Assembly (NCBI GenBank): GCA_017378975.1
Contig: JAFNXT010000167.1
Coordinates: 1 to 14,680, forward strand
Reading direction: 5' to 3'
DNA length: 14,680 nucleotides
From: Oscillospiraceae bacterium
Lineage (GTDB): Bacteria; Bacillota; Clostridia; Oscillospirales; Oscillospiraceae
In this document: in pieces, positions 1,671-11,162 of the stretch
Layout of the letters: each line of letters opens with the position of its first letter
Position numbering within the stretch: the first letter of the stretch is position 1
Notes under the pieces: generated by a model
Told to the model about the DNA's origin: nothing
Database searches by the model: none
The model's input: the letters and a program-made list of their open reading frames with translations, nothing else
Program-made: the position numbers and the translations under genes

Positions 1671-1679
1671 ATTATAGCA
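1671..1679 (-). promoter_or_regulatory. extended -10 promoter of the MATE gene
   Basis: Read on the minus strand this is TGCTATAAT, a perfect extended -10 (TGnTATAAT). The -35 region is poor (TTCCAT at 17-bp spacing, 1694-1699), as expected when an extended -10 compensates. Transcription would start near 1664, about 25 bases before the MATE ATG, leaving little more than the ribosome binding site as leader. Confidence 0.75.
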
Positions 1680-1739
1680 AAATCTGGGGTGGGATGGAAG
1701 ACGATGTGGGAAATTCTGTGCATTGTTTATGACGAAGCC

Positions 1740-1768
1740 TTGATTTTTGGGCAGGATCGCTGTATGAT
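1740..1768 (+). promoter_or_regulatory. sigma-A type promoter of the two giant secreted-protein genes
   Basis: TTGATT (1740-1745), a 17-bp spacer and TATGAT (1763-1768) resemble the housekeeping consensus. The predicted start is near 1775, about 29 bases before the ATG at 1804. An ideal AGGAGGT at 1790-1796 lies 7 bases before that ATG. The promoter is back to back with the MATE promoter; the two -10 boxes are about 85 bp apart. No clear operator repeat was seen between them. Confidence 0.7.
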
Positions 1769-1803
1769 ATGCATAGAAGTATGAAGTTCAGGAGGTATTT
1801 TTT

Positions 1804-4800
1804 ATGAAACGCATGACCGGGAAACGGATCGTGGCGCTGGTGCTGGCACTGTGTTTGGTGCTGGGACTGATGCCGTCGTTCCTCAGCGTGGAGGCGGAGG
1901 CCATCGGAGGTGTCAGCTCGCTGACCTGCTCCAGCTTCATCTCCAACAACATCGCACAGAAATATATCGATACCATGATGCGGTATCACCTGAACACGAA
2001 CTCCACTTTGCAAAGCACGCTGAACAGCGGCTTGTCCGTGGTGTTCATGTTCGAGGGCGGTTCTGACAACTACTGGAACGGCAGCACCTATGCCGACGCG
2101 GTAGGCGACGTTCGGAACCAGGCGGTATGTATCGTGGTCCAGCTGAACTCCAGCGGCAACGTTTACATCCCTTACTACTGCGAGAACAGCTCCTCGATCC
2201 CCGATGACCCCCAGAACTGCACCAACGGTGTGGCTTACTCCGGTGCCACCACGGTGAAGGATGGCATCTATTCCTTCTATACCTGGAACCACACCGGTCC
2301 TTACGGTGCCTTCCAGATCAATCTGGGTCAGGGTTATTACACTCCTGCCAATAACCTCAACGGCTACACCGCCGGTGCTTCCGGCCTGAACATCCATACC
2401 CGTTCCACCAATACCTGCGGCGGTGCCGCGGCGGGCTGGAACTGGTCTCTGGGTTGTCAGGTGATCGGCTCCGGCTACTACACCGGTAATGAATTCAACC
2501 AGTTCATGAAGGTCACCGCCGGTATCAGCTACAACGTGTGGCTGGACTACTACAACAAGTCCTTCAACACCATCACCACCGGCATCAACAAGGGCTACTA
2601 TGTGGTGGACCGCCAGCTGGGCAAGATGGATATCAACGGCAAGGATTACGGCAGCGGTTCTCTGATCCAGCTCTACAACACCACCGCGTTGACCAACATC
2701 ACTGCCAGCTCCACCACCGCCCGGCAGAACGCCGGCTTCTCCATGGACTATAAGGACCAGTGCGAGCGGTTTGCCTCCTACTGCACTCTGAACGTCACCG
2801 GCGCGGATACTCAGGTCCGGGGCGCGCCCTGCTCTGAGGGCTCGGATCCCGCTTCCACTCTGATCGAGACCCTGCAGCCCGGCAAGCAGGTCACGGCGGT
2901 GGGTATCTATAAGAACCTCTACGGCAACTACTGGTATGAGGTCCTGACCTCCACCGGCGATCTGGGCTATATCTACTCCGGCAATGTGGAGTATGTGGAG
3001 GATATCACCACGGATATCGCCCTGAACGGGGCCACGACGCCGGACAGCCATGTGAAGGGCGCGACCTTCTATGTCAATGGCACGGTGGCTACCAAATACA
3101 ATGAGATCACCTCGGTCTCCTGTTACATCTACAATGGCTTTGGTGAGAAGGGGGATCCGGTGACCGGCACCACGGAGAATACTTCGACGACTTCCTATGT
3201 GCTGAAGGGGAGCAAGGTGGACAATGACACCTGGATGGGCGCCCTTCCTCTGGGCAACTATACTTACTATCTGGCGGCGACTTATGCCAATCACTACGCT
3301 GCGGATCCCACCACTCTGAAGTCCAATACCGGTACTGTGGTGTTCAAGGATAAGCCCTTCGTGGTGGTCTCTTCGGCGGTGGATACCGCGACCTGTGCTC
3401 ACACCAATACCGATCACGTCATCAAGACATCTACCTGTCTGACAGATGGCCGGACGATCACTGCCTGTAGTACCTGCGGTCTGGTGGTGGATAAGGTGAC
3501 GAGCGGCGGTCACGCCTATGGCGCATGGAGCACCACCACTGCCCCCACCTGCACCAGGGAGGGCGTGTCCTCCCGGACCTGCTCCCGTTGTGGCGGAGTG
3601 GAGACCAAGGCTATCGATGCCAAGGGCCACAGCTACTCCACAGTGAAGCATCCTGCTACTTGCCAAAACTATGAGCGGTATGAGTACACCTGCTCTGTGT
3701 GCGGTCATAATTACAGCGTTTATGCCGATGAGATGATGACCCAGTGGTCTGAGGTCAAGCCTGAGGGCGTGGATGACAGCCTGATGGAGCGCAAGACCCA
3801 GTACCGCAGCTCTGTCTATGAGACCATCACCTCCGCTTCTGCTTCGGAGCCCGGCTACACGCAGATCGGTAAGAAGTGGATCAAGAATGGGACCAAGACC
3901 ATGCAGTATGTGGACCAGTGGCCTGAAGGCTTTTTGGATACCCACGCATTGTATTCCAAGTACGATAAGGGCCTCTTCGCGCCTGTGGAAGGGGAGACTG
4001 CTACCTCCAAGACGGAGTACACCACCACAAAGAAGCTGATCGGCTATGTGTATTACCACTGGTGTTACGGCTCCTATGCCGATGGCCCCATCAACCGTAC
4101 GACCTCCAAGGTCAATGACGGATCTCACACGACCTTCCATGCCTTCATGGCGGATCTGGCGACCATGGATCCCACGACCTTGACGGAGGCCTCGGACGGA
4201 TCTATGACCTATCCCCGGGCGGATGCCTGTACGGACTCCCACTGGTGGTACGCGATCCCTCTGTATGAGGATAGCTATACCACCTACGATGCCCAGTACA
4301 CCCATGAGCGCTGGACCGAGTGGTCCGAATGGGGCGACACGCCGATCTCCGCTTCCGGTACCCGGAAGGTCCAGGAACGGACCGTCTACCGTTATGTGGA
4401 TGCCAAGCTTGGGGACCACAGCTGGAGCGAGGGCGTTTGTACCGTCTGCGGCACCGCCTGTGAGCATAACTATGTGGACGGCTTCTGCGGCATCTGCGGC
4501 GAGGCAGAACCGGTGCGGAACTATTACCTCTTCGGTTTCATCAATGGCATGGACTATGCCTGCGAGGGCGACTACATGAACATGGGCCAGTATCTGTTCG
4601 TGGATGGGGAGCTCACGGTCACCTTCACGGAGGACAGCTATGTGGGTGTCAAGACCGAGGGGAACTACCGCTGGTATCTGACCAATGGGTTCCTTGGATG
4701 GGATGCCAAGTCCGCTACCCTCTATGACAGCAACACCCTGGCGGAGGCCGATAAGCTCTTCGTCCCGGGGCTCCACGAGATCACCTTCACCCTGACGGTG

Positions 4801-6375
4801 AACGAGGATGGGACCTTGACCTTGAGCTATGAGATCACCAAGTGCGCCCACGGCACCTGGACGGAAGGGGTCTGTACCAACTGTGGTATGCCCTGTAAAC
4901 ACAACTATTTCGCCAATGTATGTAAGATCTGCGGCTTCAAGAAGCCGGTGAAGGATATGTACCTGATCGGATTCATCAATGGCGCAGATCATGGATGCGA
5001 GGGCGACTACCAGAATCTTGGTGGATATAAGTTCGTGGGCGGCACGCTCACCACGACCTTCGCCAGTGACAGCTATGTGGCTGTCAAGTCCCATGATAAC
5101 ATGGACTGGTATATGACCAACGGCTGGCTGGGATATGATGTGACAGCCGCTACCCTTTACAACACCAACAGCGGCATCGTTGCTGAGAAACTGTTCGTCC
5201 CCGGCGGTCGGGAAGTCACTTTCCGTCTGATGGACAACGGGAATGATACCTACACCCTCAGCTATGTGGTGAAGGAATGTAAGCATCCGACCCACGATAC
5301 CAACGGTATTTGCACTGTTTGTGGTGAGAGCGTGAGCCATAAGTATGTGGGCGGTGTATGCTCCTGCGGCGCTAAGGATCCCAATGCCGTGACCGATCCC
5401 GGTCTGGCGCTCCAGTATCCCACCCTCAGCTTCGAGGACGAGATCTTCTACAACGTGTATTTCAGCGTGAAGGATACCTCTTCCGTTGAGGAGTTCGGTC
5501 TGATGCTCCTGTCCTCCCGGAACGATGCCGCCACCATGGCCGATGCCATCGGAACGGTGCCGGGATACATCACCAACGGCTCGGTGTATATGGTCAAGTC
5601 TGAGAGCGTGCCTGCCGCCCATCTGGGTGACACGGTGTATTTCAAGGTCTATGCCAAGCTGACGGACGGTACCTATGCCTATTCCTCTGCCGGCGGCTAT
5701 AACGCCAAGGCCTACGCCAATTCGATCCTCTCCGGCAACAACACCGCCGAGATGAAGGCGCTGGCGGTGGCCATGCTGAACTACGGTGCGGAGGCTCAGA
5801 AGTATTTCGGTCATAACACCGACAAGCTGGTGAACGCCAGCCTGACCGATGCCCAGAAGAAGCTGGTTGCTTCCTACAACGAGGCCATGATGGATGACGT
5901 GGTGAAGGCGGACAGCGCCAAGATCGGCGGCTTCGTGCGGAACAACGCCAACTTCAAGCAGTTGTATCCTTCTGTCTCCTTCGACGGCGCTTTCGCGATC
6001 AACTTCTACTGCACTCCCGCGATCACCGTAGACAGCGGCATGACGCTCTACTGGTGGGATGCGGAGGACTACGCCAACATCAGTATGTTCACCCTGGGCA
6101 ACGCCACGGGCAAGATGGTCATGACCGAGACCGGCGGCAACTACTGGGGTGAGGTGGCAGGGATCGCCGCCAAGGACATGGACAAGACCTATTATGTGTC
6201 CTGCGTGTTCAAGCATAACGGCACCTACACCACCACAGGCATCATCCCGTACTCTCTGGGCAAGTACTGTGAGGGCAAGGCTGCCGCCAGCGGCGATGCT
6301 CAGCAGGCCTTCGCTCAGGCCACGGTCGTGTACGGCTACTACGCCAAGGGCTACTTCGCATCCATCGCCGGATGA
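1804..6375 (+). CDS. giant secreted modular protein A with L,D-transpeptidase-like head
   Basis: 1,523 residues. A signal peptide (MKRMTGKR, hydrophobic core, AEA about 31-33) indicates export. Residues 37-300 form a head with H198 and a WSLGCQ motif (S215, C218). This spacing resembles the His-x(14-17)-[S/T]-H-G-C site of YkuD-type L,D-transpeptidases, though the second His is Leu. Then come an SH3-like domain (about 326-400), an Ig-like module (402-525), CxxC ribbon repeats (530-637), a Trp-rich domain bracketed by WSE motifs (640-870), two copies of a ribbon plus beta-rich unit of about 145 aa (872-1160), another ribbon (1160-1192) and a C-terminal domain (1195-1523). No LPxTG, dockerin or known wall-binding repeat is visible. 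The likely role is acting on or binding peptidoglycan peptides at the cell surface. The catalytic assignment is inferred; the CDS and secretion are near certain. Confidence 0.9.
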   Translation: MKRMTGKRIVALVLALCLVLGLMPSFLSVEAEAIGGVSSLTCSSFISNNIAQKYIDTMMRYHLNTNSTLQSTLNSGLSVVFMFEGGSDNYWNGSTYADAVGDVRNQAVCIVVQLNSSGNVYIPYYCENSSSIPDDPQNCTNGVAYSGATTVKDGIYSFYTWNHTGPYGAFQINLGQGYYTPANNLNGYTAGASGLNIHTRSTNTCGGAAAGWNWSLGCQVIGSGYYTGNEFNQFMKVTAGISYNVWLDYYNKSFNTITTGINKGYYVVDRQLGKMDINGKDYGSGSLIQLYNTTALTNITASSTTARQNAGFSMDYKDQCERFASYCTLNVTGADTQVRGAPCSEGSDPASTLIETLQPGKQVTAVGIYKNLYGNYWYEVLTSTGDLGYIYSGNVEYVEDITTDIALNGATTPDSHVKGATFYVNGTVATKYNEITSVSCYIYNGFGEKGDPVTGTTENTSTTSYVLKGSKVDNDTWMGALPLGNYTYYLAATYANHYAADPTTLKSNTGTVVFKDKPFVVVSSAVDTATCAHTNTDHVIKTSTCLTDGRTITACSTCGLVVDKVTSGGHAYGAWSTTTAPTCTREGVSSRTCSRCGGVETKAIDAKGHSYSTVKHPATCQNYERYEYTCSVCGHNYSVYADEMMTQWSEVKPEGVDDSLMERKTQYRSSVYETITSASASEPGYTQIGKKWIKNGTKTMQYVDQWPEGFLDTHALYSKYDKGLFAPVEGETATSKTEYTTTKKLIGYVYYHWCYGSYADGPINRTTSKVNDGSHTTFHAFMADLATMDPTTLTEASDGSMTYPRADACTDSHWWYAIPLYEDSYTTYDAQYTHERWTEWSEWGDTPISASGTRKVQERTVYRYVDAKLGDHSWSEGVCTVCGTACEHNYVDGFCGICGEAEPVRNYYLFGFINGMDYACEGDYMNMGQYLFVDGELTVTFTEDSYVGVKTEGNYRWYLTNGFLGWDAKSATLYDSNTLAEADKLFVPGLHEITFTLTVNEDGTLTLSYEITKCAHGTWTEGVCTNCGMPCKHNYFANVCKICGFKKPVKDMYLIGFINGADHGCEGDYQNLGGYKFVGGTLTTTFASDSYVAVKSHDNMDWYMTNGWLGYDVTAATLYNTNSGIVAEKLFVPGGREVTFRLMDNGNDTYTLSYVVKECKHPTHDTNGICTVCGESVSHKYVGGVCSCGAKDPNAVTDPGLALQYPTLSFEDEIFYNVYFSVKDTSSVEEFGLMLLSSRNDAATMADAIGTVPGYITNGSVYMVKSESVPAAHLGDTVYFKVYAKLTDGTYAYSSAGGYNAKAYANSILSGNNTAEMKALAVAMLNYGAEAQKYFGHNTDKLVNASLTDAQKKLVASYNEAMMDDVVKADSAKIGGFVRNNANFKQLYPSVSFDGAFAINFYCTPAITVDSGMTLYWWDAEDYANISMFTLGNATGKMVMTETGGNYWGEVAGIAAKDMDKTYYVSCVFKHNGTYTTTGIIPYSLGKYCEGKAAASGDAQQAFAQATVVYGYYAKGYFASIAG
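4417..5283 (+). repeat. tandem intragenic duplication in protein A (two ~145-codon units)
   Basis: Unit 1 spans 4417-4845 and unit 2 spans 4849-5283. Each has a short CxxC-HNY-CxxCG ribbon followed by a beta-rich domain opening with Y-L-x-G-F-I-N-G and CEGDY. Further shared landmarks are DSYV-x-VK, WY-[LM]-TNG-[FW]-LG, ATLY, KLFVPG and a final TLSY. The copies are clearly diverged, so this is an old domain duplication rather than a recent DNA repeat. Protein B lacks the unit. The fold is unrecognised; a ligand-binding beta-sandwich, perhaps for carbohydrate, is a guess. Confidence 0.75.
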
Positions 6376-6415
6376 CGTGCTTTTTGACCCGGATGGATCT
6401 TTTGATATCGAAATA

Positions 6416-6468
6416 AAGGAGGAGGGAAGAAACTGTGGCCTTGCGGCTACAGTTTCGTATGAGCTATG
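6416..6468 (+). promoter_or_regulatory. displaced ribosome binding site with intervening hairpin, gene B
   Basis: The only good Shine-Dalgarno sequence before gene B is AAAGGAGGAGG (6416-6426), 40 bases from the ATG at 6466. An in-frame TGA at 6460-6462 rules out an earlier start. A 12-bp hairpin (6429-6440 with 6445-6456, TTGC loop, one G-U pair) lies between them. When folded it leaves about 11 bases between the Shine-Dalgarno sequence and the ATG, close to normal spacing. Alternatively, a GTG at 6435, 8 bases after the Shine-Dalgarno sequence, could start a 61-codon overlapping frame ending at 6620. Confidence 0.6.
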
Positions 6469-9400
6469 AAAATGATGGAACGTTTCCTCTCGATGCTCCT
6501 GGTGGTGTCCATGCTCCTTGGTCTGGCCTGCTTTGGTGTGGTACCAAGGGTGTCGGCGGCTTCGGCCGGAGACTATATCGCCGCCAGCTACGCGTCCAGC
6601 TTCCGTGTCCGGGCAGATAAGGTCGTGGGACTGAAGGAGGTCCCTGATGCATCCGCCTCGGATAAGTATACGGTACCGGCGGGCACTATGCTCACGGTGA
6701 CCAAGCTCCACCGGAACACCTCCGATACTCATTGGTATCGGGTGCTGTTCTACAAGCAGGAGCTGTATGTGGATGCCCTGTCTGTGACTGTCGTGGAGCA
6801 TCTGACCGGTGATGTGGATGTCTCCGGTCTGTTGACCCCGGCGGCGCTGGGCAAAGGTCAGGGTTTCCCTCTGGAGGGTAAGGTCACTTCAGAGCGTAAC
6901 CGACTTGGTACCATCACCGCTTCCGTCCATCGGTGCAGTAACCTTACCGAGGCCCCGGTGATCAGCTCTTCTGACGAAGCCTCGTATTACAGCTATGACC
7001 TCAAAAACAGCGGTGTGGACGTGGGCATGATCTACAGTGATCTTGCCGCAGGTAGCTACACCCATGTGCTTTCGGTGGAGGCGATCGGCTATTATGTGAC
7101 CAAGAACGGTGAATTGGACGGTATGACGACGGATGTGGTGCTGGAGAGCAAGCCTTTGATCGTCACTACGGCCAATGTGAACAATCCTGTGGTGGCCAAG
7201 GGCATCGACGTGAGCGTCCATCAGGGTACGATCAACTGGGCCGCTACGGCACCTGAGATCGATTTCGCGATCCTTCGGATCGGTTGGGAGACCACGCTGG
7301 ATACTCAGTTCAAAAACAATGCCGCTGGTTGTAACGCCAACGGCGTACCCTTCGGCGTGTACATCTATTCCTACGCAGAGTCTGAGGCCGAGGCGATCGC
7401 GGAAGCCAATTTCGTGATCAATGCCTTGAAAGATTATGATGTGGATCTGCCGATCTACTTCGATATCGAAGATCCAGTCCATACGGTCCTCGGTGCTTCC
7501 ACGATCCAGAAAATCGTCCGTGCGTTCTGTGATACCATCCGGGATGCGGGCTATGAGCCCGGTCTTTACACCTTCCTGAGCTGGTTCAATACCTATTTCG
7601 GCGGCAGTTATTATAACTCTCTGCCTAAGTGGGTGGCGCAGGTGGATGTGAGCACCTGTTCCTATGCCAAGGGACTGACCATGTGGCAGTATTCCTGGAC
7701 CGGCCGTTTCTCCGGCATCTCCGGTGATGTGGACTGCAATTATCTGTTCGGTGAGTTCCCTGGGGAGAATTCTGACAACAGTTATTTGAGCAAGTGTACA
7801 TACTATCCCTCCAACGCCACAGCGACTACCATCGATCAGGCGGAGGTCCGGCAGTATCCCAGCACGGACTATACCTCTCTGGAGACCCTCTCCGCAGGGA
7901 CGGAGGTCCGTGTGGTCGGTATCTACAAGAACGCCTACGGTAACTGTTGGTATCAGGTGGATCTTGATGGGGTCACGGGTTACATCTATCATGATCTGCT
8001 CCAGATAAAGGAGCTTAGCTATGACGATGTCAGCGTGATCGGACCTGCCATGGATGATATGGCCCTGAAGACCGGATATTATTTGAAGGGCAAGTTGTAT
8101 TCCAAATACAATGATATGCAAAAGGTCCACGCCAGGATCTATTCCGGCGAGGATGTGACCGGGTCCCCGGTCCTGCAGAGCAGTGACACGGCAGGGGGCA
8201 AGGAGTATGTCCTCAATTACAGCAAGGTCTGTGATGATCTGTGTTTCAGTGATCTGGCGGCTGGATACTACACCTATGAGATCTCCGCCGATGTGACGAA
8301 CTACTATGTCCAGGACGGGACTCTGGTGAGCAAGACGAAGAATGTGCCGATCTGGACCAAGGGCTTCACGGTGGGGGGCATCACACCGGTGCCTCCGGCC
8401 TCCATGGTATGCGCTCACACTTTGGTCACAGATCCCGGCTATCCGGCCAGCTGTACGGAGGATGGCCTGACGGACGGTGCCCATTGTTCTAAGTGCGGTA
8501 TGGTGGTGACGGCGCCTGCGCCGATCCCGGCCACTGGTCACAGCTATTCCTCGCAGGTGATCCCTGCCACCTGTCAGGACTTTGCCAAGCTCAAGTATAC
8601 CTGCGGGAACTGTCAGCACACCTATACGATCTATGCCAATGAGGCTGAAAACTGGTCCGATACCCGGCCGGAGGGGGTGAGGGACGATCAGCTGGAGATC
8701 AGGACCCAGTACCGTTACAGTGACTTCGGTACGGTGGTCTCCGATCAGCCCACCATGGCAGGCTTCACCCAGATGGGGAAGACCTGGCAGAAGACAGGCT
8801 CCGGCTCGGTCCAGTATGCCCAGAGCTGGCCCGCTGGCTTTGAGACCTCCCATGCGATCTACGGGCAGTACAACAAGACCAAGGTCACCGCTTCTGAGAC
8901 TGCCACCACCAAGACTGTGATCGACAGCGATAAGGTGACCTCCTATATCTACTACCACTGGTGCCAGGGTTCTTACACGCTGGGGCCGATCAACCGTGGT
9001 ACTTCTCCGGTGAAGGCCGATCCTTATCTGACGTTCCATGCCTTCGTTGCCGATGTGTCTACCATGGATCCCACCACCCTGACCCCAGCTTCCGACGGTT
9101 CTGTGACCTATCCGAGAGCCGATGCCTGTACGGATTCCCACTGGTGGTACTACATCCCGGTACATACCCAGAGTTATTCCAGCTATACGGCGGAATTCAC
9201 CTATGAGGGCTGGAAGGAATGGTCCGAATGGAGCGATGATCTGGTGACAGCCACGGCCACCCGGAAGGTGGAGACCCGGATTGTGTACCGTCCCAAGGCG
9301 GAGCTGGGGGACCACACCTATGTGGATGGCGTTTGCTCCCTGTGTGGTGCTGAGGAACCCGACGCGGTGTGCAAGCATCCGATCCATGATCAGAAGGGCG

Positions 9401-10479
9401 TGTGCGGCAACTGTGGTGAGACGGTGGGCCACTCCTATACGGGCGGTGTGTGCGATATCTGCGGAAAAGCGGAGCCTGTGCCCAAGATCTCTCCCAATTA
9501 CTTCAGCGTCTCTTTCGAGGGTGAGGTGCTGATGAACATCTATTTCAAGGTCACGGATATGGAAGGTGTGGCACCTTCGGATATGGGTCTTCTGACCTGG
9601 ACCACGCCTCAGGCTGATGCCACCATCGCCACGGCCCAGAACGTGATCCCCGGCGCCATGACCGACGGCAATTTCTTCATGGTCCGGACCGAAGGCATCC
9701 CTGCCAAGAAGCTGGGCGATCTGGTCTACTTCAAGATCTACGCCAGAATGTCTGACGGTTCCTATGTCTACAGCAAGATGCTCTCCGGCAGTCCCAAGAA
9801 TTACGCTCTGACACAGGTGAACAAGGATATGACCAACGGGTCTGCACAGGACAAGGCTCTGCAGAAGCTCTGTGTGGCTATGCTGAACTATGGTTCTGCG
9901 GCGCAGACGACCTTCTCCTACAAGCCATACAGTCTGATGAACGCGACTTTGACGCAGTCCCAGAGAGATCAGATCCGGGGTTATGATCCATCTATGGTGG
10001 CTGGACTTCCCACTGTCAATGCGTCCAAGGTGGCGAAGCTGAAGGGCAACGGCGGCTTCAGCAAGTTCTATCCCAGCATCTCTTTCGATGGGGCTTTCTC
10101 CATCAACTTCTATATGGTGCCGGGCTATCCGGTGGAGGGTGGACTGAAGCTGTATTACTGGGATCCGGAGACGTATGATGCTGTTTCCCAGTTGGCTTTG
10201 AGCAATGCCACGAAGGTGATCGTGATGGAAAACGGTGGGAGCGGTTCTACCTATTGGGGGGCCTTGAACGGCATCGCCGCGAAGGAGATCGACCGGCCCG
10301 GTTTCTTCGCCGGTGTTTATACCTCCGGTGGGATCACATATTCTACCGGCGTGATCTGCTATTCTTTGGGACGCTATTGCCAGACGACGGCGGCGAATAT
10401 GGATCACGAGACCAGAGCGCTGGCGGCGGAGACGGCGGTCTATGGCTATTACGCGAAGCAGTATTTTGCGCTGATGTGA
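6466..10479 (+). CDS. giant secreted modular protein B, GH25 muramidase
   Basis: 1,337 residues. A signal peptide (MKMMERFLSM, hydrophobic core, cleavage after VSA at 31) is followed by an SH3-like domain (34-112), an Ig-like module (114-236) and a GH25 lysozyme domain (about 244-430). The GH25 domain contains KGIDVSVHQGTINW with D248, the YFDIED active-site motif with D333 and E335, GLYTF, WVAQVD and MWQYS...VDCNYL. GH25 enzymes cleave the MurNAc-GlcNAc beta-1,4 bond of peptidoglycan. A second SH3-like plus Ig-like pair (442-638), CxxC ribbons (648-722), a Trp-rich domain (723-949), more ribbons (953-1004) and a C-terminal domain (1008-1337) match protein A. It lies 90 bases after gene A with no convincing promoter between, so it is probably co-transcribed. 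GH25 and secretion are certain; whether it remodels the cell's own wall or attacks rivals is unknown. Confidence 0.95.
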   Translation: MKMMERFLSMLLVVSMLLGLACFGVVPRVSAASAGDYIAASYASSFRVRADKVVGLKEVPDASASDKYTVPAGTMLTVTKLHRNTSDTHWYRVLFYKQELYVDALSVTVVEHLTGDVDVSGLLTPAALGKGQGFPLEGKVTSERNRLGTITASVHRCSNLTEAPVISSSDEASYYSYDLKNSGVDVGMIYSDLAAGSYTHVLSVEAIGYYVTKNGELDGMTTDVVLESKPLIVTTANVNNPVVAKGIDVSVHQGTINWAATAPEIDFAILRIGWETTLDTQFKNNAAGCNANGVPFGVYIYSYAESEAEAIAEANFVINALKDYDVDLPIYFDIEDPVHTVLGASTIQKIVRAFCDTIRDAGYEPGLYTFLSWFNTYFGGSYYNSLPKWVAQVDVSTCSYAKGLTMWQYSWTGRFSGISGDVDCNYLFGEFPGENSDNSYLSKCTYYPSNATATTIDQAEVRQYPSTDYTSLETLSAGTEVRVVGIYKNAYGNCWYQVDLDGVTGYIYHDLLQIKELSYDDVSVIGPAMDDMALKTGYYLKGKLYSKYNDMQKVHARIYSGEDVTGSPVLQSSDTAGGKEYVLNYSKVCDDLCFSDLAAGYYTYEISADVTNYYVQDGTLVSKTKNVPIWTKGFTVGGITPVPPASMVCAHTLVTDPGYPASCTEDGLTDGAHCSKCGMVVTAPAPIPATGHSYSSQVIPATCQDFAKLKYTCGNCQHTYTIYANEAENWSDTRPEGVRDDQLEIRTQYRYSDFGTVVSDQPTMAGFTQMGKTWQKTGSGSVQYAQSWPAGFETSHAIYGQYNKTKVTASETATTKTVIDSDKVTSYIYYHWCQGSYTLGPINRGTSPVKADPYLTFHAFVADVSTMDPTTLTPASDGSVTYPRADACTDSHWWYYIPVHTQSYSSYTAEFTYEGWKEWSEWSDDLVTATATRKVETRIVYRPKAELGDHTYVDGVCSLCGAEEPDAVCKHPIHDQKGVCGNCGETVGHSYTGGVCDICGKAEPVPKISPNYFSVSFEGEVLMNIYFKVTDMEGVAPSDMGLLTWTTPQADATIATAQNVIPGAMTDGNFFMVRTEGIPAKKLGDLVYFKIYARMSDGSYVYSKMLSGSPKNYALTQVNKDMTNGSAQDKALQKLCVAMLNYGSAAQTTFSYKPYSLMNATLTQSQRDQIRGYDPSMVAGLPTVNASKVAKLKGNGGFSKFYPSISFDGAFSINFYMVPGYPVEGGLKLYYWDPETYDAVSQLALSNATKVIVMENGGSGSTYWGALNGIAAKEIDRPGFFAGVYTSGGITYSTGVICYSLGRYCQTTAANMDHETRALAAETAVYGYYAKQYFALM

Positions 10480-10493
10480 CGTTCCGGATACAA

Positions 10494-10524
10494 AAGACCC
10501 GTTCGCTTTACGCGAACGGGTCTT
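10494..10524. terminator. inverted repeat between convergent gene B and nth
   Basis: A perfect 13-bp stem (10494-10506 with 10512-10524; arm AAGACCCGTTCGC) has a 5-base loop and lies between two converging stop codons. On the minus strand it is followed by TTTTGTAT (four T, the first two inside the stem), a modest intrinsic terminator for nth. The plus strand lacks a T-run (AGTTCG), so it may end gene B only weakly or just stabilise its 3' end. Confidence 0.65.
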
Positions 10525-10535
10525 AGTTCGTAGAA

Positions 10536-11162
10536 TCATGGGACGAATTGGCTACACCATGGGGACAGGGGGCACTGGTCGCATTTGGGGCTTCGGGCGG
10601 TGCAGACCTCTCTGCCGAAGAGGACGACCCTATGGCAGAAATCGGAGCTTTCTTCTGGTGGGAGGATCTGGCGGAGTTGACGTTCCACTTTTTCAGGGTC
10701 CTTGCCCTGAGAAAGGCCCAGACGGCCGCAGATGCGGATACAATGGGTGTCACAGACCACACTGCCGGGAGCGCCGTACAGGTCACCCAGAAGGAGGTTG
10801 GCGGTCTTACGGCCCACGCCGGGGAGCCGGAGCAGGTCTTCCATGGTGCCGGGGACCTTGCCGCCGTAGTCCCGGATCAGCATTTGGCAGGCCAGCACGA
10901 TGTCACGGGCCTTGTGCTTGTAGAAACCGCAGGAATGGACCAGCTCCTCCACATGGGAGATGTCTGCCGAAGCTATGGCCTCCAAAGTAGGGTAGGCGGC
11001 GAACAAATGGGGCGTCACCAGATTCACCCGTGCATCGGTGCATTGGGCCGACAGGCGGACCGCGATCATCAGTTCATAGTCCGTGAGGTAATGGAGGGCA
11101 CAGGGCGCGACGGGATAGCGTTCCTTCAGCCGTTGGATGATGGCGGCGACTTTCTTTTGCAT
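10536..11162 (-). CDS. nth: endonuclease III (DNA glycosylase/AP lyase)
   Basis: 208 residues, the usual length for Nth. It removes oxidised pyrimidines from DNA and nicks the abasic site in base excision repair. Visible hallmarks are LSAQCTD (37-43), the helix-hairpin-helix LPGVGRKTAN (113-122) with catalytic K119, and VVCDTHCIR with catalytic D138. The [4Fe-4S] ligands are C187, C194, C197 and C203 in the standard C-x6-C-x2-C-x5-C spacing. The ATG at 11162 is preceded by GAAAGGTGATC, and the leader contains the palindrome AGGTGATCACCT touching the start codon. It lies 26 bases after the SSB-like gene and is probably read from the same transcript. No missing key residues were found. Confidence 0.97.
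   Translation of the reverse strand: MQKKVAAIIQRLKERYPVAPCALHYLTDYELMIAVRLSAQCTDARVNLVTPHLFAAYPTLEAIASADISHVEELVHSCGFYKHKARDIVLACQMLIRDYGGKVPGTMEDLLRLPGVGRKTANLLLGDLYGAPGSVVCDTHCIRICGRLGLSQGKDPEKVERQLRQILPPEESSDFCHRVVLFGREVCTARSPKCDQCPLSPWCSQFVP

Follow-up and report, generated by a model that had tools for sequence, protein, structure and literature searches.

Contig JAFNXT010000167.1 of an Oscillospiraceae genome (assembly GCA_017378975.1; 2.02 Mb in 359 contigs, completeness rating 76%) carries two neighboring genes for giant modular proteins, here termed A and B. The window hereafter refers to the whole analyzed stretch of 14,680 nucleotides. Both open reading frames are complete, begin with ATG, and lie on the + strand with a gap of 90 bases, an arrangement claimed in an earlier sequence-only reading of this DNA and borne out by the reading frame coordinates (Table 1). 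Our analyses make it moderately probable that A and B constitute a co-inherited, secreted peptidoglycan-digesting pair of the Oscillospiraceae and their relatives, in which A would act as a stem-peptide hydrolase and B as a glycan muramidase.

Results

Both proteins are probably secreted, judging from N-termini that resemble signal peptides by inspection, and a scan of the two sequences for LPxT[GA] motifs found none in either A or B. The modules of A are arranged as head, SH3, immunoglobulin-like (Ig), ribbons bearing CxxC motifs, a tryptophan-rich module (W), ribbon, X1, ribbon, X2, ribbon, and a C-terminal module (C), while those of B follow the order SH3, Ig, GH25, SH3, Ig, ribbons, W, ribbons, and C. 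There are eight CxxC motifs in A and five in B, and a match to the bacterial SH3 domain SH3_3 is present. By BLASTP, residues 316-963 of A align with 440-1078 of B (38%, E 1e-124) and residues 1159-1519 of A with 969-1335 of B (42%, E 2e-85); the SH3-Ig portion of A aligns a second time, to residues 58-244 of B (27%, E 3e-16). It had been proposed that the two proteins share a single module order after their heads, and this holds for SH3, Ig, ribbons, W, and C, except that X1 and X2 belong to A only. The GH25 muramidase described as the head of B likewise exists, although it is internal (residues 244-432), behind an SH3-Ig block (37-238).

Table 1. Features of proteins A and B and of the region between their genes.
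Feature	Coordinates	Strand	Remarks
Protein A	1804..6375	+	1523 aa, modular; residues 1-32 signal-peptide-like by inspection
Head of A, residues 36-330	1909..2793	+	Family without a name; conservation; predicted YkuD fold, model pLDDT (predicted local distance difference test) 92.9
His198 of A	2395..2397	+	Predicted catalytic base; motif N-I-H-T-R; invariant in 73-row alignment
Ser215-Leu-Gly-Cys218 of A	2446..2457	+	Predicted nucleophile Cys218; S, G, and C invariant in 73-row alignment
Val220 of A	2461..2463	+	Cys+2 position; Arg in most LD-transpeptidases (PMC8263019 and PMC8938487, excerpts)
SH3 domain of A, residues 333-398	2800..2997	+	
Ig-like module of A, residues 401-530	3004..3393	+	Similarity to B; tree
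CxxC ribbons of A 5' of W, residues 531-635	3394..3708	+	
Trp-rich W module of A, residues 637-870	3712..4413	+	
Module X1 of A, residues 904-1012	4513..4839	+	No counterpart in B
Module X2 of A, residues 1049-1160	4948..5283	+	No counterpart in B
C-terminal module of A, residues 1201-1523	5404..6372	+	Model pLDDT 95.0: two halves, beta-strand plus helix
12-bp hairpin	6429..6456	+	Between Shine-Dalgarno-like AGGAGG and ATG of B (region 6417-6466)
Protein B	6466..10479	+	1337 aa, modular; signal-peptide-like N-terminus by inspection
First SH3 of B, residues 37-112	6574..6801	+	
First Ig-like module of B, residues 115-238	6808..7179	+	
GH25 muramidase of B, residues 244-432	7195..7761	+	PF01183, E 3.4e-24
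Second SH3 of B, residues 445-514	7798..8007	+	
Second Ig-like module of B, residues 517-645	8014..8400	+	
CxxC ribbons of B 5' of W, residues 646-722	8401..8631	+	
Trp-rich W module of B, residues 723-945	8632..9300	+	
CxxC ribbons of B 3' of W, residues 946-1008	9301..9489	+	
C-terminal module of B, residues 1009-1337	9490..10476	+	

The enzymatic assignment of B is the simpler of the two. Its GH25 domain reaches 86.6 bits for Pfam PF01183 (cut-off 27) and aligns to the structures 2ww5 (E 3e-20) and 1jfx (E 3e-12), which we take to be LytC and Cellosyl, respectively. Residues D248, D333, E335, and D423 of B all fall on acidic residues of these two structures, at positions that are presumably the catalytic residues of the GH25 family, and the residue aligned with E335 is Glu in 2ww5 and Gln in 2wwc. 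Family and residues would thus make B a muramidase cutting the glycan, similar to LytC and Cellosyl in its domain and acidic positions, but with that domain placed mid-chain within a giant modular protein.

Sequence searches gave the head of A no family name. A Pfam and NCBIfam scan of A returned no match there (PF03734 was absent at E values up to 1), comparison with the PDB by sequence returned chance-level matches only, PF03734 was absent among the 20 families listed for 21 head relatives at E values up to 10, and profile comparisons of the head with 4 and with 33 YkuD sequences found no tie beyond the motif. The YkuD assignment rests on the motif and on the predicted structure of the head, which contains the YkuD beta-sandwich fold. 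In a search with this model, which included the SH3 domain that took most of the 50 matches listed, the head part matched YkuD enzymes only, at moderate scores, the best being the LD-carboxypeptidases Pgp2, Csd6, and Bd1075. DpaA was not among these 50 matches, which is no argument against a likeness to DpaA. The head family comprises 354 proteins at E values up to 1e-3 among 8000 candidates scored, and the closest database match to the head of A, from a record named Oscillospiraceae bacterium, is 100% identical across the head.

The putative catalytic residues set this family apart from the canonical YkuD enzymes. The YkuD motif has been described as hydrophobic-G-hydrophobic-H-G-(S/T) and C-hydrophobic-R (PMC12729407; this source and the others cited here are quoted from excerpts), and the catalytic pattern has also been given as H(S/G/D)X14-19C (PMC4599014). 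The corresponding motifs of the head family are N-(I/V)-H-T-R and C-x-(L/V), so that the canonical pattern with G at His-2 and His+1 does not apply. Position His+1 is Thr in 256 of 257 heads (a further 13 of the 270 lack the pattern), His-2 is Asn in 255 of the 257 and His in the other 2, and the His-Cys spacing is 14-19 in 227 and 12-13 in 30. Arg at Cys+2 is found in none of 255 head proteins (those of the 270 in which this pattern was found) versus 32 of 33 YkuD controls. These features suggest that the head family forms another hydrolytic line within the YkuD fold, distinguished by the N-x-H-T-R surroundings of its His. Canonical PF03734 enzymes were found in none of 19 genomes of the same genus, in 3 of 11 genomes of other families within the order, and in 82 of 101 genomes drawn from the whole phylum. 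A distant head relative resides on a protein with the S-layer homology domain PF00395 (L054, positions 1381-2802, genome G033), to which the protein of L055 is near-identical, and the head relatives P0240 and P0269 carry the VanZ domain PF04892 according to a precomputed Pfam list.

When the distribution of A and B is examined, their partnership looks real as judged from gene order and fusions. Large heads, defined by E values up to 1e-35, number 12 in 7 of 136 genus genomes. The 3' end lies inside the contig for four of these (window, G262:C12, G236:C95, and G262:C23); seven run off the contig, and G769:C95 was judged to do likewise from L078, which has the same frame length and runs off its contig. 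A B protein follows A on the same strand in the window, G262:C12, and G236:C95, and no B was found in the 2.7 kb examined beyond A at G262:C23. Two Ruminococcus records (L079 and L080) also encode A and then B, the sequence ending inside B, and record L077 carries a head on a different scaffold with no B. With each locus counted once (L075 corresponds to the locus of G236, and L076 to that of G270:C95), the two genes are neighbors in five of the seven loci with a visible 3' end, and in two lineages; inclusion of a divergent head protein that has a C module and no B nearby (G262:C23:19866, E 7e-33, below the cut) gives five of eight. The pairing in the sequence-only reading was exposed to the chance that the genes would be unlinked in all relatives, and linked pairs were found in G262, G236, and both Ruminococcus records. 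Furthermore, the A contig of G270 begins with the upstream neighbor of the window (77% identical) and its B contig holds the four downstream neighbors (74-90% identical), from which we infer an A-B pair across a contig break. The five neighbors, whose labels (MATE, Nth, SSB-like, pyrophosphatase, and YgiQ) come from reading rather than by search, were absent from the short flanks of L101, L075/L119, L079, and L080 (1.2 and 0.2 kb for L075, the upstream side only for L079 and L080). B-like proteins also occur without an A in the 5 to 8 kb upstream (L109, L110, and L111).

Both heads are fused in 4 of 120 listed proteins. In P0087 and P0088, an A part (head-SH3-Ig-ribbon-W) precedes a B part (SH3-Ig-GH25-SH3-Ig) in one chain, with a second W in P0088; P0116 has the B block and then the head, and P0106 has a distant GH25 (29%) and then the head. 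Since A and B are kept together or fused in several relatives, they probably act as a team. The head is present in 26 of 101 genus genomes, and a GH25-SH3 protein of ~530 aa occurs in 17 of 20 small-head genomes versus 5 of 81 others (Fisher 3e-12, uncorrected for kinship; the 81 include 6 large-head genomes, and 55 of the 101 genome identities were inferred from numbering). Linkage of the small head-SH3 genes to GH25 as a rule was rejected, the two being on the same contig in 2 of the 17 co-occurring genomes (G243 and G244), and the 7 small-head loci examined have no consistent neighbors.

The scaffold on which the two enzymes are mounted is not private to the pair; it is general in this genome. 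A search with the C module of B found 27 matching places in this genome, counting A and B themselves, and Pfam analysis of 9 of the 27 proteins found a family in 6 and none in 3 (L038, L040, and L051). The families are alpha-amylase with CBM26, CBM26, GDSL lipase, F5/8 with DUF4855, LRR_5, and Flg_new. The fold of the C module returned only generic tandem FN3/Ig-like matches, mostly with large root-mean-square deviations, and no function was inferred from it. Several of the 27 loci (L007-L033) are cut by contig ends, and the repeated C modules may break the assembly.

In module trees, from which pieces below a length cut-off were excluded, the Ig modules of A, the first Ig modules of B, and the second Ig modules of B form separate clades, each with members from both the window genus and Ruminococcus, which indicates that the Ig split predates these lineages; the A clade also takes in two Ig modules of L036, a GH25 protein of the same genome, and one of L052. 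The C module of A clusters with those of 8 further proteins from the same genome (99/98) and not with that of B, which falls among other B proteins (95/93 for the nearest, 96/93 for a group of four); L075 departs from this pattern, its A and B having C modules that cluster with each other (99/97). Among W modules, one set (100/98) has 12 rows, 6 from A and 6 from B, namely both proteins of the window, of G262, and of L075, the B proteins of G270 and of each Ruminococcus record, and two A genes of G270, one of them counted as two identical rows. A second set of 13 rows consists of dispersed copies plus A of both Ruminococcus records. It is thus evident from these trees that modules have been exchanged, and a simple recent duplication does not account for the window pair; the A and B arms are mostly old paralogues. 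A recent tandem duplication is rejected for the window pair by the Ig, C, and W trees, with the L075 C modules as the exception. The duplicated scaffold of the sequence-only reading, taken as a recent event, is therefore not supported, given the separate old Ig clades and a C module of A that is nearer to other proteins of its own genome.

The start of A is preceded by the Shine-Dalgarno-like sequence aggaggt. The fold energy of the hairpin before B has a z of -2.25, with 5 of 200 shuffles being equally good, and it could tune the translation of B relative to A; without the hairpin, the Shine-Dalgarno-to-ATG spacing of B would be nearer normal. Long antisense frames on the - strand, at 1672-6801 (1709 aa) over A and 6889-10539 (1216 aa) over B, are probably a by-product of codon usage.

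Discussion

Based upon the predicted fold and the residues around its putative nucleophile, the head of A is most likely a YkuD-fold cysteine hydrolase and not a cross-linker. The key observation is the loss of Arg at Cys+2, as the described enzymes without that Arg are hydrolases: DpaA, which lacks it, is reported to have no LD-transpeptidase activity, and the LD-carboxypeptidases lack it as well (PMC8263019). A even shares its Val at this position with Bd1075 (PMC8938487). The activity of Csd6, on the other hand, requires Trp-158, two residues before His-160 (PMC4599014), whereas A has Asn at this position and Thr at His+1. Pgp2 of Campylobacter, Csd6 of Helicobacter, and Bd1075 of Bdellovibrio resemble A in the predicted YkuD fold, the His-Cys motif, and the missing Arg, but they have an NTF2 domain where A continues from its head into SH3 and a giant scaffold, and no sequence-level similarity to A was detected. 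The canonical YkuD LD-transpeptidases of PF03734 differ in the surroundings of the His, the Arg after the Cys, and the lack of a profile match. The sequence-only reading had named the head L,D-transpeptidase-like and had regarded A and B as complementary wall enzymes. The predicted fold and the His/Cys motif favor a peptidoglycan-related head in A, as GH25 does in B, which leaves "transpeptidase" as the doubtful part of that description.

It is conceivable, though unlikely, that the head of A is nevertheless a true LD-transpeptidase, which would form cross-links or tie proteins to the wall while B opens the glycan, the giant proteins thereby being inserted into the cell's own wall. This would have to be reconciled with the complete lack of the Arg, the inactivity of Arg-less DpaA as an LD-transpeptidase, and the missing canonical glycines. 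The presence of the head in just 26 of 101 genus genomes also argues that it is no general replacement for the missing YkuD enzymes.

A quite improbable scenario is that A resembles DpaA (also YafK or LdtF), the YkuD-type amidase of Escherichia coli, in freeing proteins or polymers from the diamino acid while B cuts the glycan, so that the pair would shed wall-attached material. To our knowledge, there is no peptidoglycan-linked protein like Lpp in this lineage, which counts against such a role. DpaA, like A, has a residue other than Arg at Cys+2, and it hydrolyzes without cross-linking (PMC8263019), but it is a Gram-negative enzyme and targets Lpp-peptidoglycan links. A does not conserve the aromatic D-Ala pocket of LD-carboxypeptidases at the Trp position, where DpaA has Met (PMC10653827), which would suit an amidase of this kind. 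Conversely, the best fold matches are LD-carboxypeptidases, with no DpaA among the 50 listed, even if this is not exclusive.

Incidental adjacency in a lineage with many shuffled surface modules is largely refuted and highly improbable: the 27 genomic places of the C module on many kinds of protein, the unpaired A proteins (G262:C23 and L077), and the B-like proteins without A would fit it, but neither the A-B pairs that recur with identical order and orientation in the window, in G262 and G236, and in two Ruminococcus records, without the window's neighbors in the examined flanks, nor the fusions in more than one order would do so.

Returning to a secreted pair of hydrolase and muramidase, the following mode of action can be envisaged. 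SH3 domains would anchor both proteins to peptidoglycan; the W and C-terminal modules may direct them to the surface or secreted compartment that also houses the amylase and lipase proteins. B would cut the glycan, as its family and residues imply, and A, having lost the Arg, would hydrolyze a stem-peptide bond, for example by taking off the residue that follows the diamino acid or by freeing material attached there. Together, perhaps at the same site as the sequence-only reading envisaged, the two would convert polymeric peptidoglycan into disaccharide-peptides that have been trimmed. Their having a scaffold in common with amylase and lipase proteins leans toward digestion of outside polymers as the purpose, the alternative being turnover of the cell's own wall. 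The record titles of relatives name roe deer and goat gut samples, which suggests that the window organism also lives in an animal gut. More tentatively, and well short of an even chance, this could be a dedicated system of gut Oscillospiraceae in which B frees disaccharide-peptides and A, representing a new YkuD-fold hydrolase family, trims or releases them at the diamino acid, for foraging on foreign peptidoglycan and shaping the gut muropeptides, including NOD1-active tripeptides.

Each kind of enzyme is known, whereas the head family is nameless in the libraries searched and literature searches limited to open-licence texts turned up no account of the two as linked or fused partners, in keeping with the earlier remark that no named system has such a pairing. 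One YkuD and one GH25 protein of Enterococcus faecalis are reported separately in the excerpts consulted. A parallel by description is LPH of lactobacilli, which combines a muramidase with a DL-endopeptidase and thus likewise digests glycan plus peptide, but with another peptidase activity and in a single protein (PMC11382707). The same review considers the secretion of LD-carboxypeptidases by gut bacteria an obvious question, with their action on exogenous peptidoglycan still to be determined, and the A/B pair is a concrete candidate for it. These analyses equip a nameless protein family with a fold prediction, probable catalytic residues, and a partner that recurs. Should A indeed be a hydrolase, bacteria of the animal gut would secrete a two-enzyme set for glycan and peptide, and its action on outside peptidoglycan and effect on gut muramyl-tripeptides (PMC11382707) would be approachable with two cloned genes.

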